Shown: positions 28,653-61,123 of the stretch, in pieces
How positions within the stretch are numbered: position 1 is the first letter of the stretch
How the letters are laid out: every line of letters begins with the position of its first letter
Assembly: GCF_022879575.1 (NCBI RefSeq)
Contig: NZ_CP084261.1
Coordinates: 1,162,495-1,226,494, forward strand
Origin: Caballeronia sp. SL2Y3
Lineage (GTDB): Bacteria > Pseudomonadota > Gammaproteobacteria > Burkholderiales > Burkholderiaceae
DNA length: 64,000 nt
Direction: 5' to 3'
The notes under the pieces: model-generated
What the model saw: only the letters and a program-made list of their open reading frames with translations
Database searches by the model: none
Told to the model about the DNA's origin: nothing
Position numbers and translations under genes: made by a program

Positions 28653-28670
28653 GGTGAGAGGTTTCGGGAG
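28653..28670 (+). repeat. dispersed origin-type 18-bp repeat, copy A
   Basis: GGTGAGAGGTTTCGGGAG matches the repeat of the array at 62.7-63.9 kb. It is the first of three copies between the AEC and lipocalin genes. Apart from these copies the stretch 28593-29054 holds no gene I can support. Confidence 0.75.
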
Positions 28671-28854
28671 CGGCCGGACGGTGAGGACCGCTGCGCCGAC
28701 CGCTCTCACTTCACGGTTCGGCGCACGCGTGACAGAGCTTTCACTAATCGCCGCAAGTCGTTGATTCCAGACAGAACGCGGGTTTCGCCGATTTTGCGCC
28801 TTGCGGGCGACGCACTCGCTCGACCTTCGCTGTCACCGCGCCGCTGCGCTTTGA

Positions 28855-28872
28855 GGTGAGACGTTTCGGGAG
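28855..28872 (+). repeat. dispersed origin-type 18-bp repeat, copy B
   Basis: GGTGAGACGTTTCGGGAG, same orientation as copy A and 202 bp to its right. Confidence 0.75.
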
Positions 28873-28979
28873 GTGCGGAGCGCGGCCTAGCGCATGATCG
28901 GCACGCGGGACAAAAGCCAATGATCGCAACGTCTTTCGGCATAGCCGCCGGGCCGCCGCACCACGCTGCACGCGCGAAA

Positions 28980-28997
28980 GGTGAGACTTTCCGGGAC
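28980..28997 (+). repeat. dispersed origin-type 18-bp repeat, copy C
   Basis: GGTGAGACTTTCCGGGAC, a slightly diverged copy 125 bp after copy B and 58 bp before the lipocalin ATG, so it lies in that gene's leader. Confidence 0.65.
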
Positions 28998-29054
28998 CGC
29001 TCGCGTCGGAACGCTCATTGCTATCCGATTGATCTCCAACGGACTTCAAACGCA

Positions 29055-29624
29055 ATGAAATCACGACGACCTTGGGCGTATGGCGCCGCGGCGCTGATAG
29101 CGATAGGAGGCATCGGTGCGCTCGCGGCCTATGGACTGAAAGGCGCGAAGCGCAGCGGTAACGAGAACGTGCCGGAGCCGTCGAAGGCCGTGGACCTCGA
29201 CCGCTATCTCGGCCACTGGTTCGAATTCGCCCGCTACGAAAACCGCTTCGAGCGCAATTGCGAAGCTGTCACCGCCAACTATGCGCGGCGCGAGGACGGT
29301 CTCATTTCGGTCATCAACGCGTGCCGCGAAGGCAGCCTCACCGGACGATACCGCTCGGCGGAAGGACGCGCGAAGGTCGTGCCCGGATCGAACGGAACGA
29401 AGCTCAAGGTCTCGTTCTTCGGGCCGTTCTATGTCGGCGACTACTGGATTCTCGATCACGCCGACGACTATTCGTGGTCTATCGTCGGCGAGCCGACGGG
29501 CCGCTATCTGTGGATTCTCACGCGCGAGGCCCGCCCTTCGGCCGAATTGCGCCGCACGCTGCTCGTGCGCGCCGCCGCGCTCGGGTACGACACCACGATG
29601 CTGCGCGAAACGCAGCACGACTGA
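29055..29624 (+). CDS. lipocalin family protein (Blc-like)
   Basis: A 189-residue lipocalin. An N-terminal hydrophobic segment (AYGAAALIAIGGIGALAAYGL) acts as signal or anchor; there is no lipobox cysteine, unlike classic Blc lipoproteins. The lipocalin domain has the first conserved block LDRYLGHWFEFARYENRFERNC (G-x-W core), then TANYARREDGLISVINACREG and YWILDHADDYSWSIVGEPTGRYLWILTR. Bacterial lipocalins bind lipids at the outer membrane during envelope stress. The ATG at 29055 opens the membrane segment. Origin-type repeat copy C lies in its leader. Confidence 0.9.
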   Translation: MKSRRPWAYGAAALIAIGGIGALAAYGLKGAKRSGNENVPEPSKAVDLDRYLGHWFEFARYENRFERNCEAVTANYARREDGLISVINACREGSLTGRYRSAEGRAKVVPGSNGTKLKVSFFGPFYVGDYWILDHADDYSWSIVGEPTGRYLWILTREARPSAELRRTLLVRAAALGYDTTMLRETQHD

Positions 29625-29636
29625 GCGCGGTCCGGC

Positions 29637-29891
29637 TCAGTTCGCCTTGCAGGCGAGCAGCAGCGAATTCTGGTTGTTGTCGCTCGACTGATCGAGCACG
29701 TCGTAGCCGGCGGGACACGCCACCTTCGCGTTATCGGTACACAGACGCCAGCCGCCATAGGCTGGACAGGTGACGAGTTGCGTCGGCCGGCCGTCGGCGG
29801 AAAAAAGCGGCGGCGCGCTGCTGCATCCGCCGAGCGCCCACGCGCTCGCAGCGAGCATGACGATATGGCCGATTGCCTTGCCGAGCTTCAT
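29637..29891 (-). CDS. small lipoprotein, hypothetical
   Basis: An 84-residue lipoprotein. The signal peptide ends in the lipobox ALGGC, with lipid-bearing Cys at 23. The mature part has four more cysteines (TCPAYGGWRLC, VACPAGYDV, LLACKAN) that could form two disulfides. I do not know the family. It is convergent with the lipocalin gene, 12 bp apart, and follows the sigma-54 activator gene on the same strand. Confidence 0.75.
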   Translation of the reverse strand: MKLGKAIGHIVMLAASAWALGGCSSAPPLFSADGRPTQLVTCPAYGGWRLCTDNAKVACPAGYDVLDQSSDNNQNSLLLACKAN

Positions 29892-29988
29892 CCCGCACCC
29901 CTTGTTTTCAGGTCGTTATTCTTGATTCCGTGGTTCCGCGAGTATGCCACGCACAGCTCTCGCGCCGATTTTCGATGCCCGGCGCGAG

Positions 29989-59090: not shown

Positions 59091-59177
59091 TAAAGTGGTC
59101 GTGCCGGCCGCGTCCGGTAATCACGGATTCTTCCGCACGCTGTCCTTCAAATCTTCGCGCACGTCACCCGCTCCTTT

Positions 59178-59309
59178 CTAGATCTTGCCGGCGACCTGTT
59201 GCATGTCACCCTTGGCTTCCTGCGTGGGATCGTCGGTAGCCTTGCCGACCACTTCGTTGATCTTCCCCTTCACTTGTTCGCCGACGCCTTTGACCTGGTC
59301 CTTATTCAT
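59178..59309 (-). CDS. CsbD family stress protein
   Basis: A 43-residue CsbD-like protein (MNKDQVKGVGEQVKGKINEV, then GKATDDPTQEAKGDMQQVAGK). It is hydrophilic and predicted disordered or helical, and the family is typically induced in general stress. The ATG at 59309 has a strong AAAGGAGAA. The role is unknown. It is divergent from the LexA-box gene across 260 bp. Confidence 0.88.
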   Translation of the reverse strand: MNKDQVKGVGEQVKGKINEVVGKATDDPTQEAKGDMQQVAGKI

Positions 59310-59525
59310 CACGTTCTCCTTTAGGTTCAGCGTGAAAACTTCGCCGTGCTCGTCGCATGCATCGCATCCATCGCGTTTCAGCCGATAGAAACCTGCTCTG
59401 AGCATGGTTCGAGGATGCGCTTTTTCAACGCCGCCTTGCAGCCGACGATGTCTGAACAAGGCGTAGGCGGAATCGCACATACACGGACACCGAACGGCGC
59501 GACGCTATTTTCATGCGCGAAGATA

Positions 59526-59541
59526 CTGTATATTTTTACAG
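59526..59541 (+). promoter_or_regulatory. LexA (SOS) box
   Basis: CTGTATATTTTTACAG matches the proteobacterial SOS box CTGT-N8-ACAG with an AT-rich centre. It lies 28 bp upstream of the ATG at 59570. Confidence 0.8.
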
Positions 59542-59569
59542 TACAAAGACCGGTGCGAGGGGTGACAAC

Positions 59570-59926
59570 ATGGAGTCAAACGGCGAACATCTGAGCAAGA
59601 AACAGTTCGAGCGGGCCGTGCGCGACCTTGAACGCATTACGCGGCAGATAGCGGCTCGCTACATCGAAAAGGGCGTACCGCTCACGTGGCGCCTCTTGCA
59701 TGCCATCGAGGCGGAGGCGGTTGCAGACCTCGGTTTCGCAGGGCGTCACGAAGCCGCGCTGCGCGAGTTGTTCGCGCGCCCCGAGAACTTCGCTTATCCC
59801 GAGACCGACGACGTTGTGGACATCGCATCGTCCGACGCTTTGCCTGCGGTATTCGGCTTCGCCGTCGACGCGTACGAGTGCGCTGCCCGGCAGGGCCGGC
59901 CGCAACTGGCGCTCGCGGGTCATTGA
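59570..59926 (+). CDS. SOS-controlled hypothetical protein
   Basis: A 118-residue soluble protein I do not recognise. It is mostly helical: an N-terminal helix (KKQFERAVRDLERITRQIAARYIEK), a middle WRLLHAIEAEAVADLGFAGRHEAALRELFARPE and an acidic loop YPETDDVVDIASSD. The ATG at 59570 is chosen because the earlier ATG at 59513 lies upstream of the LexA box. A GAGGGG box precedes it. SOS control suggests a role in DNA-damage response, perhaps linked to the nearby origin. It is 160 bp upstream of the degenerate recombinase. Confidence 0.7.
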   Translation: MESNGEHLSKKQFERAVRDLERITRQIAARYIEKGVPLTWRLLHAIEAEAVADLGFAGRHEAALRELFARPENFAYPETDDVVDIASSDALPAVFGFAVDAYECAARQGRPQLALAGH

Positions 59927-60086
59927 TTAGCGGCCTACGCATCGACGGTCAACACCGCGATAACGACTAACTTCGCCGATCAGCACATGCGGGCGCAGGC
60001 TTCGGTACAGTGGACGCTTGACGCCCGCGGCGTGAAGCCCGACTCTCTCTGCAAAGCGAACCGCGTCAAAGCGCCCTCTGAATACA

Positions 60087-61100
60087 ATGCCGACTACCCC
60101 CGATCTCTTCGACCAACAGCGCGCGGACTGGCAGGCCGACCCGCACGCTGCCTTCGACGCATGGCTTGCTCAACAAGAATTCCGTGCGTCTTCCGCCGAT
60201 GTTTATCGCGCGCAGTGGGGCAACTTTCTTGAATGGCTACAAGCGAAGCGGGCGACGCTCCATACCGTGCAGCGGCCCGTCATCGAACAGTTCGTCTCGC
60301 AGCTCGACATTCGGCGTCCGCAGCGAATGCGCTACCTGCGCTTGATCGAGCGCGTGCTGGATCACGTGCGGGAAATCGAAGCTGCGGGGACCAATCCCGC
60401 GCGGTTCATCGCGCAGGACGGCGATGCAGCCTGGCGTAAAGCCCGCGATAACGAGCCGACCGGCTTCCTGACGCACGACGAGCGAGCCTTGTTGATCGCG
60501 CATCTGTTTTCGCCTTTGGGCGCGCTACCTGCAGGACAGCGCTGGCGTGAACAACGCGACCGCGCACTGGTTGCCGCCTTCATGGGCGCGGGGGTGAAAA
60601 CGGCCGAAGCGGCGCAGTTGACCGTCGATTGCTACGCGCCTGGCGCGCCTTACATAACGGTCGATGCGACGAATCCGCTCTTGATCCGCCAGGCGCGCCT
60701 TGCGCCGTTCGCCGTCGAGTTGCTGGACGCCTGGATAAGCGAGCGCAGAGCCGCCGGGCTCGCCGGTGAGTTGCTTTTTCCGGCAGCGCCCTCGGGCCGG
60801 CCAATGCACAAGGCGACGATGCTGCGCGCCATCGACGCGGTCGTGGCCGCGTCGGGCATCGCAGCGTCTCGGGTTGCGCGAGCCAGCCCGCAGACGCTTC
60901 GCAACACCTACGCGGCGGAGCTGTTCGACGAAGGCGTCGACCCGGAGCGGGTTGGCCAGTGGCTGGGCTTTCAGCAAATGATTTCCGTGCATCGGCTCCA
61001 TCGGGCGTGGCAGGACTGGACCGGTGAGCAAATACGGGAGCGCGATCTCGCTCAGGCACAGGCTGGCGCGAGCGAAGAGGCAGGCTTTACCGGCGTCTGA
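60087..61100 (+). CDS. tyrosine-recombinase-fold protein with degenerate active site
   Basis: A 337-residue protein with the XerC/integrase plan: an N-terminal SAM-like DNA-binding domain (about 20-100; VYRAQWGNFLEWLQAKR) and a C-terminal catalytic fold (about 125-320). The active site is mostly lost. The first Arg is K171 (AGVKTAEAAQL), the box II H-x-x-R is Q269-x-x-R272 (SPQTLRNTYAAEL), the third His/Trp is F295 (WLGFQQM), and no Tyr occurs where the nucleophile is expected (ISVHRLHRAW). Only R272 remains. It probably binds DNA without cutting it. It sits 1.6 kb from the iteron array, beside kfrA. Confidence 0.8.
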   Translation: MPTTPDLFDQQRADWQADPHAAFDAWLAQQEFRASSADVYRAQWGNFLEWLQAKRATLHTVQRPVIEQFVSQLDIRRPQRMRYLRLIERVLDHVREIEAAGTNPARFIAQDGDAAWRKARDNEPTGFLTHDERALLIAHLFSPLGALPAGQRWREQRDRALVAAFMGAGVKTAEAAQLTVDCYAPGAPYITVDATNPLLIRQARLAPFAVELLDAWISERRAAGLAGELLFPAAPSGRPMHKATMLRAIDAVVAASGIAASRVARASPQTLRNTYAAELFDEGVDPERVGQWLGFQQMISVHRLHRAWQDWTGEQIRERDLAQAQAGASEEAGFTGV

Positions 61101-61105
61101 CGGCA

Positions 61106-61123
61106 CTCCCGAAAACGCTCACC
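61106..61123 (-). repeat. dispersed origin-type 18-bp repeat, copy I
   Basis: Reads GGTGAGCGTTTTCGGGAG on the minus strand, the same 18-mer as copy F. It lies in the gap between the recombinase-like gene and kfrA, just after both stops. Confidence 0.8.

Follow-up and report, generated by a model that had tools for sequence, protein, structure and literature searches.

How plasmid-derived second chromosomes are made to fire once per cycle has been worked out chiefly in Vibrio, and a 64,000-nucleotide stretch of Caballeronia sp. SL2Y3 (contig NZ_CP084261.1, positions 1,162,495 to 1,226,494 of the forward strand; hereafter, the window) raises the question of what the copies of an origin repeat may do when they are found far from the origin. 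Contig C2 (1,226,494 bp), the 1.23-Mb chromid of a 5.51-Mb genome, ends on its right-hand side with the window, which carries an origin array of an 18-bp repeat, the iteron, and further copies of the same repeat to the left of this array. In the original prediction, nine outlying copies were listed, and it was proposed that they might titrate an initiator, loop to the origin (handcuffing), or tie gene expression to replication. The reading favored here, whose probability can be set at about 0.62, is that the outlying copies, which number 12, are extra binding sites of the initiator RepA that have been kept by selection and act as a sink and/or as a handcuffing brake.

The first base of C2 is the first base of repA, which thus lies just beyond the end of the window; since the contig begins at repA, the array stands directly upstream of this gene, provided that C2 is circular. 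The array consists of 16 direct copies (62739..63882, + strand, up to 3 mismatches), and the 27 copies mentioned in the original prediction could not be reproduced as a count for the array. Taking C2 as a circle, the last array copy starts 136 bp ahead of repA; the corresponding distance is 135-137 bp in five out of the six stretches compared and 364 bp in the remaining one (G108). An origin array of the same kind is present in the repA loci of all the relatives inspected (80/80), with 7-16 copies each (up to 2 mismatches) and always in a uniform orientation. RepA (C2:1-1365) contains the Rep3_N and Rep3_C domains (PF01051 and PF21205) of the Rep_3 winged-helix family and shares 99% identity with the RepA of Caballeronia sp. 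GAFFF1. Its predicted model has moderate confidence (mean predicted local distance difference test score 69.9, predicted template modeling score 0.34); a fold search with this model returned RepE and Pi with iteron DNA on top (E 2e-6 to 5e-6) and RctB next (5e-3), the matches superposing poorly overall (template modeling score 0.21, root mean square deviation about 16). Downstream of repA are parB and parA, whose products carry ParB and ParA domains, and close to them the palindromes TTTATGCGCATAAA (L008, positions 2474, 3251, and 3291), which we take to resemble the published parS of chromosome 2 (c2). A Rep_3 gene beside the repeats, a direct-repeat array, and parAB with parS-like sites close by are the traits of an iteron-type (Rep_3) chromid origin, and the origin repeat is the predicted iteron of the Rep_3 initiator RepA.

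The outlying copies were retrieved with a position matrix built on 1373 array sites from the origins of the 80 relatives; the B. cenocepacia c2 iteron consensus, as published in the section of PMC4948915 cited here, agrees with this matrix. The scan of 184 kb around the origin at a threshold of 17 bits yielded 12 outlying sites, every one located 2.9-44.5 kb to the left of repA; in the 60 kb to the right of the repA start only one weak match was detected, inside repA itself (C2:1153, 14.6 bits), which was taken as chance. The background of the matrix is about 1.5 matches/Mb at 17 bits and 0.5/Mb at 20 bits in simulated sequence, and no match at 20 bits was found in 183 kb of other real sequence. 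When mismatches are simply counted, the window contains 29 matches with up to 3 mismatches, versus 0.61 expected, and none of 100 shuffles reached 29. All the nine copies originally listed are found in place and on the strand assigned to them; eight of them differ from GGTGAGNNTTTTCGGGAG at no more than 2 positions, and that at 39491 has 3 mismatches. The sites at 19527, 47702, and 61023 are additional to that list.

The 12 sites can be grouped into five pairs or triples (stations A-E) and one single site (station 0). Station A is formed by 28653..28670 and 28855..28872 (+ strand, 1 mismatch each) and by 28980..28997 (+ strand, 2 mismatches), the last of which lies 57 bp ahead of the likely start codon of a lipocalin gene. 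Station B comprises 39460..39477 (+ strand, 0 mismatches, 28.7 bits), upstream of a gene for an AI-2E family transporter, and 39491..39508 (+ strand, 3 mismatches, 21.6 bits); station C comprises 47676..47693 (- strand, 0 mismatches, 28.3 bits), upstream of a deaminase gene, and 47702..47719 (- strand, 3 mismatches, 22.5 bits); and station D comprises 54522..54539 (+ strand, 1 mismatch, 27.4 bits) and 54585..54602 (+ strand, 0 mismatches, 29.0 bits). At station E, 61023..61040 (+ strand, 22.3 bits) falls within the 3' end of a tyrosine recombinase gene (60087..61100, + strand, PF00589), and 61106..61123 (- strand, 0 mismatches) lies between this gene and the convergent kfrA-like gene (61151..62347, - strand, KfrA_N, PF11740), which is interposed between the station and the array. 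The station 0 site (19527..19544, - strand, 22.3 bits) is embedded in the coding sequence of hpnD, assigned through TIGR03465. No tRNA gene was found in the 64-kb window. The description of the copies as single fits the site at 19527, while at 17 bits the other 11 of the 12 have a neighbor no more than 300 bp away; the statement that all the nine listed copies lie between genes is correct if the lipocalin gene starts at 29055, and fails if the upstream ATG at 28920 is the start. In this genome and its relatives, the outlying sites have a mean score of 25.1 bits (n = 141, leaving out the outlying copies with CAG instead of CGG) versus 23.9 bits for the array sites (n = 202); since their scores at least equal those of the array, the outlying sites are not decayed.

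Within the genome, the repeat is concentrated at the chromid origin. All the 19 matches of its degenerate form GGTGAGNNNWTNCRGGAN (reversed control, 0) and all the 14 exact matches of GGTGAGNNNNTNCGGGAG fall in C2:1191147-1226376, i.e., in the last 35.3 kb. With the pattern of the original prediction (up to 2 mismatches), 20 out of 23 genome matches are located in C2:1182021-1226376, in agreement with the predicted bias toward the chromid origin as opposed to an equal density elsewhere; the other three are isolated, with 2 mismatches each (reversed control, 0), and the sole match of this pattern on the main chromosome (C1) likewise has 2 mismatches. The looser pattern GGTGAGNNNNTNCGGGAG is uninformative at 2 mismatches (187 matches vs. 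147 in the reversed control), and its three 1-mismatch matches on C1 are at background level. As for a trigger site of the same motif on C1, none of the 19 GGTGAGNNNWTNCRGGAN matches lies there; a crtS of unrelated sequence would escape this search. A count of one-mismatch matches in 16 further genomes (2-4 contigs), in which the arrays were included, gave 236, of which 228 fall on the contig that bears repA and 8 elsewhere, as compared with 5 in the reversed control; one genome out of 16 is devoid of any match. An exact iteron match was also seen at G130:C1:1646467-1646484, on a contig without repA that is possibly a main chromosome. Copies of the origin-iteron motif on the same replicon and close to the origin, as found here, are also what characterizes the extra-origin initiator sites of V. 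cholerae chromosome II.

The outlying sites recur across 13 regional stretches, 10 from Caballeronia (including this genome) and 3 from Paraburkholderia. Considering sites of at least 20 bits, which were also used for start-codon distances and densities, the relative has a site in 24 of the 24 orthologous gaps that contain one in this genome and in none of the 308 that do not; the 24 and 308 comparisons are not independent, owing to shared ancestry, and all the 24 derive from six gaps of this genome. The station A triple is flanked by the same two genes in all the 10 Caballeronia stretches, this one included; its distance from repA is 22 kb in C. sordidicola and 114 kb in C. telluris, and in C. 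jiangsuensis it is found, inverted, 47 kb away on the opposite side of repA. In the alignment of station A (10 genomes), identity is 0.76 in the site columns (0.89 at the 12 core positions) and 0.40 in the rest of the gap; in that of station E (9 genomes), the values are 0.77 (core 0.84) and 0.34, respectively, and the 61023 site is aligned in the seven Caballeronia rows and not in the two Paraburkholderia rows. Station E is represented in 76 of 80 loci by a site located 2.8-3.7 kb upstream of repA; of the four loci without it, two end before that position. At station B, the MAFFT alignment of gaps of 740-1720 bp placed the sites of the relatives off those of this genome, and conservation is here read from flank mapping alone, with at least one site in 9 out of 10 Caballeronia stretches; by the same approach, station C has at least one site in 6 out of 10, so that the stations are not all universal. 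The site at 19527 occupies the same place in nine genomes, where it includes an arginine codon AGA or AGG in all cases (9/9); in the five genomes in which codons were counted, these two together make up about 4-6% of those for arginine. Five of the nine genomes also use the rare ATA. Because rare codons are kept, this DNA word seems to be retained beyond the needs of the protein. On the basis of these comparisons, the outlying sites look old and under selection; the original observation is correct, and the case for the identity and conservation of the sites is stronger than originally claimed.

Regarding the protein that might use them, the iterons of other RepA lineages are informative. Among RepA relatives sharing 33-40% identity, G096 and G097 have variant iterons, and G095 and the third replicon of G091 have different ones. 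The second RepA lineage (33% identity), that of the genus of G095 and G131, has AGGTGmAyGnCyATGGT as its iteron, with outlying copies on both sides of the origin; 10 of the 11 copies in G131 have a counterpart in G095 at the matching place, and G116, the third genome of this genus, contains two outlying copies. The outlying sites thus track the iteron of the cognate RepA, which raises the standing of RepA as the presumptive binder. Considering the array motif, the location on the same replicon, the retention at orthologous places, and the parallel sites of the second lineage, there is good support for the prediction that the copies are putative sites at which the chromid initiator binds.

According to the model that we favor, RepA would bind the outlying sites beyond the origin array. 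The stations near the origin would double early after firing, because of their closeness to it; once doubled, they would sequester RepA and/or pair RepA-bound arrays (handcuffing), thereby helping to block a second initiation within one cycle. The arrangement in pairs and triples would favor joint binding. Titration and/or handcuffing, which were both envisaged in the original prediction and are inseparable here, would be the role of the sites.

Other explanations can be envisaged. The copies might be remnants that were passively scattered when the origin was duplicated or rearranged, as their confinement to its vicinity could suggest; however, stations A and E keep their sites while the surrounding DNA diverges, the outlying scores at least equal the array scores, and in the relatives the sites are flanked by the same orthologous genes. 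This explanation, already disfavored, is the least probable. It might also be supposed that the main user of the outlying sites is another DNA-binding protein, e.g., the KfrA-like protein encoded beside the array. Its gene, located between the array and station E, was recovered from 82 of the 86 stretches inspected, and two of the other four are too short to include it; moreover, four strongly reduced chromids (G108, G139, G088, and G149; 61-72 kb, RepA 78-82% identical) lack both a detectable kfrA (0/4 searched whole, tblastn, E up to 1e-3) and outlying sites. In G108, a distant relative of the recombinase (39%) is located about 20 kb from repA. Nevertheless, the four reduced chromids retain repA and the array just upstream of it; since they do so without a detectable kfrA, the array does not depend on KfrA in any of the four, as a KfrA operator should, and the motif itself is independent of kfrA. 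In addition, the iteron type follows the repA type in other lineages. A role of KfrA at the stations may still be compatible with the KfrA-free arrays of the reduced chromids, but KfrA as the main user is judged improbable, slightly more so than the gene regulation discussed below.

The third possibility raised in the original prediction, i.e., the coupling of gene expression to replication, would have RepA regulate the genes adjacent to the stations. In the window, a start codon is indeed no more than about 100 bp away from stations A, B, and C, and in 13 genomes the density of outlying sites is about 12-17 times higher in intergenic DNA than within genes, according to the gene calls made in this analysis (36 sites in 1079 kb of coding sequence). 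However, divergent gaps (35 sites in 71 kb, 0.49/kb) and co-directional gaps (59 in 146 kb, 0.41/kb) are not denser than convergent ones (25 in 45 kb, 0.56/kb), station E is located between convergent genes, and the neighbors (lipocalin, transporters, deaminase, recombinase) share no theme; in the portion of PMC11711613 cited here, RctB of V. cholerae had little effect on two other genes tested. Because promoter-bearing gaps are not preferred and the neighboring genes are mixed, a common role in gene control is disfavored, and regulation of the adjacent genes appears rather improbable. Somewhat less so, though still unlikely, is that RepA at the stations mainly organizes or segregates the origin region (by looping, array bridging, or helping partition) rather than lowering the amount of free initiator. 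This would agree with the clustering of the sites about the origin and the par genes, with their occurrence mostly as pairs and triples, and with the persistence of fixed gene neighborhoods; on the other hand, station A lies at 22-114 kb on either side of the origin, which leaves no constant loop length, and a loop of fixed length is disfavored since distance, side, and orientation all vary. What is left after these exclusions is an initiator sink, handcuffing, or a general bridging near the origin, among which the sink/handcuff is favored.

Several points nevertheless weigh against a sink or handcuffing brake. RepA is the simplest candidate binder of the outlying sites, and its binding there is a prediction from sequence. 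A pure sink leaves the long retention of single places unexplained, since the sites could arise anywhere. In V. cholerae, as reported in part of PMC11711613, mutating three sites from among the most prominent secondary RctB sites barely affected chromosome 2 replication, and, according to the section of PMC3937223 cited here, a strain with one titration site deleted showed no growth phenotype; given these mutants, the effect of the stations may be small or shared among many sites. None of the four reduced chromids searched whole contains outlying sites (0/4), which are thus dispensable on very small replicons. Furthermore, no strong outlying copies surround the array of the third replicon (c3) of G091, where two weak matches (18.9 and 13.2 bits) were detected, none surround the array of C4 in this genome, and only two lie near the array of G097, indicating that Rep_3 replicons are not uniformly equipped.

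Chromosome-2-type sites were also found at the origin of a third replicon. This concerns the genomes of group g35, named Burkholderia-type since both their c2 and their c3 iterons agree with those published (g44 is called Paraburkholderia-type by likeness). Eight out of ten g35 genomes encode a second RepA with 35-36% identity. In seven of them, the origin of this third replicon is accompanied by two chromosome-2-type sites, which are spaced 33-34 bp apart and lie about 1.7 kb upstream of its repA. The pair shows 90% identity (core 97%) versus 51% for its flanks, and scores from -11.5 to 5.8 on the iteron matrix of the third replicon itself. A strict gapped pattern derived from the seven pairs matched, once each, 25 of the 65 genomes of the genus, a denominator that is not restricted to third-replicon carriers (reversed control, 0); the pairs are located at L198:9509-9559 and at the corresponding places in L202-L207 and L230-L247. 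Besides the 7 known instances, these matches include 18 new ones, all of them (18/18) lying 1.69-1.77 kb upstream of the third-replicon repA, as measured to the point where the alignment with the gene begins, which is not a proven start codon. In 15 of the 18 new genomes the pair is followed at 0.44-0.52 kb downstream by the nearest third-replicon iteron, and in the other three a lone third-replicon iteron copy lies on the opposite side. The pair was not found in G151 or in two g44 third replicons; G161 and G188, in which no second RepA was found, gave no match; and no reciprocal c3-type sites were detected near the c2 origin in 10 stretches. The presence of exactly one chromosome-2-type pair beside the third-replicon origin in 25 of 65 Burkholderia-type genomes is new here. 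Tentatively, and with the odds against it, the RepA of chromosome 2 might bind this pair and gate or delay initiation of the third replicon, which would directly link the two secondary replicons, the chromosome-2 stations being the cis half of the same control; alternatively, the pair could be a second class of sites for the RepA of the third replicon. According to the part of Du et al. 2016 (PMC4948915) cited here, c3 origins segregate later than those of c1 and c2, and a contribution of the c1 Par system to this staggered segregation is proposed by the authors; the pair would represent a concrete candidate for the late segregation of c3, either additional or alternative to the c1 Par link.

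Further site clusters were observed in some relatives. In the Burkholderia-type genome G188, a tandem cluster of chromosome-2-type sites is located 148 kb from repA and consists of ten copies that repeat every 23 bp and an eleventh one; G151, also Burkholderia-type, has a similar cluster about 160 kb from repA. The clusters of these two genomes are at L185:10317-10588 and L186:6914-7230, with a small group 3 kb away. In Paraburkholderia (L131, L134-L135, and L142), arrays of the variant word GGTGAGnnnTTCCAGGAG occur about 11-16 kb upstream of repA, adjoining station D in two of the three genomes; the CAGG form of this word is similar to the iterons found in G096 and G097, and no second RepA-like gene was found in the regional stretches, including near these arrays. 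In G096 itself, whose RepA is 38-39% identical, a second cluster (L195:828-1477) is present 5-6 kb past the 3' end of the repA gene, with nine iteron-like sites of at least 13 bits, seven of which reach at least 17. Lastly, two sites in inverted orientation, separated by about 250 bp, were noticed in two Paraburkholderia-type genomes, away from the origin (G074:C4:496356-496624 and G076:C2:4238566-4238835).

Among known systems, the closest precedent is represented by the outlying RctB sites of V. cholerae chromosome II; these outlying iterons, located near ori2 and early-replicating, bind RctB and inhibit replication when in multicopy, as described in the part of Baek and Chattoraj 2014 (PMC3937223) cited here. 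Differences exist, however: RctB and its iteron are not those found here; the V. cholerae sites have been shown to bind their initiator, whereas those described here are known from their sequence; the Vibrio chromosome has a second class of sites, a 39-mer, of which no equivalent is known here, no search for one having been made; and, unlike in V. cholerae, the sites described here are mostly in pairs and triples, in gene neighborhoods that are conserved within Caballeronia and partly beyond. Iteron plasmids such as P1, F, and R6K have extra inhibitory iterons and are controlled by handcuffing; the chromid shares with them a Rep_3 initiator, a direct-repeat array, and an expected autoregulated copy control, but their extra iterons adjoin the origin, whereas here they are spread over 45 kb in the gaps between host genes. 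The datA locus of E. coli is likewise an initiator-binding locus near the origin that lowers initiation, although for DnaA, and crtS of V. cholerae is located on the primary chromosome and triggers initiation (both as given in parts of PMC3937223 and PMC11711613), while no close match of the motif was detected on the main chromosome here.

As for Burkholderia, the original prediction assumed that nothing of this kind had been described in chromids of this type. This has to be corrected in part, since the c2 iterons of B. cenocepacia J2315 (PMC4948915, as far as the sections consulted report) are the same repeat, as the reverse complement of ctCCCGAAAAacCTCACCTtt, beside a repA, and the legend for c2 mentions that more copies occur all over the genome and that there is a second cluster at a distance of 140 kb, which is probably the cluster observed in G188; it holds in that the outlying copies, in a different genus, are not mapped or analyzed in those sections. 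A limited literature search, at the level of titles and the beginnings of abstracts, retrieved no work on outlying iterons of Burkholderia chromids. In comparison with Vibrio, a different family of initiators is involved here, with outlying sites in Caballeronia, Paraburkholderia, and Burkholderia-type genomes, and a second RepA lineage has a parallel set of its own. The recurrent appearance of initiator sites outside the origin may therefore accompany the conversion of an iteron plasmid into a chromosome, and the coordinates of the stations provide exact targets for deletion or chromatin immunoprecipitation.

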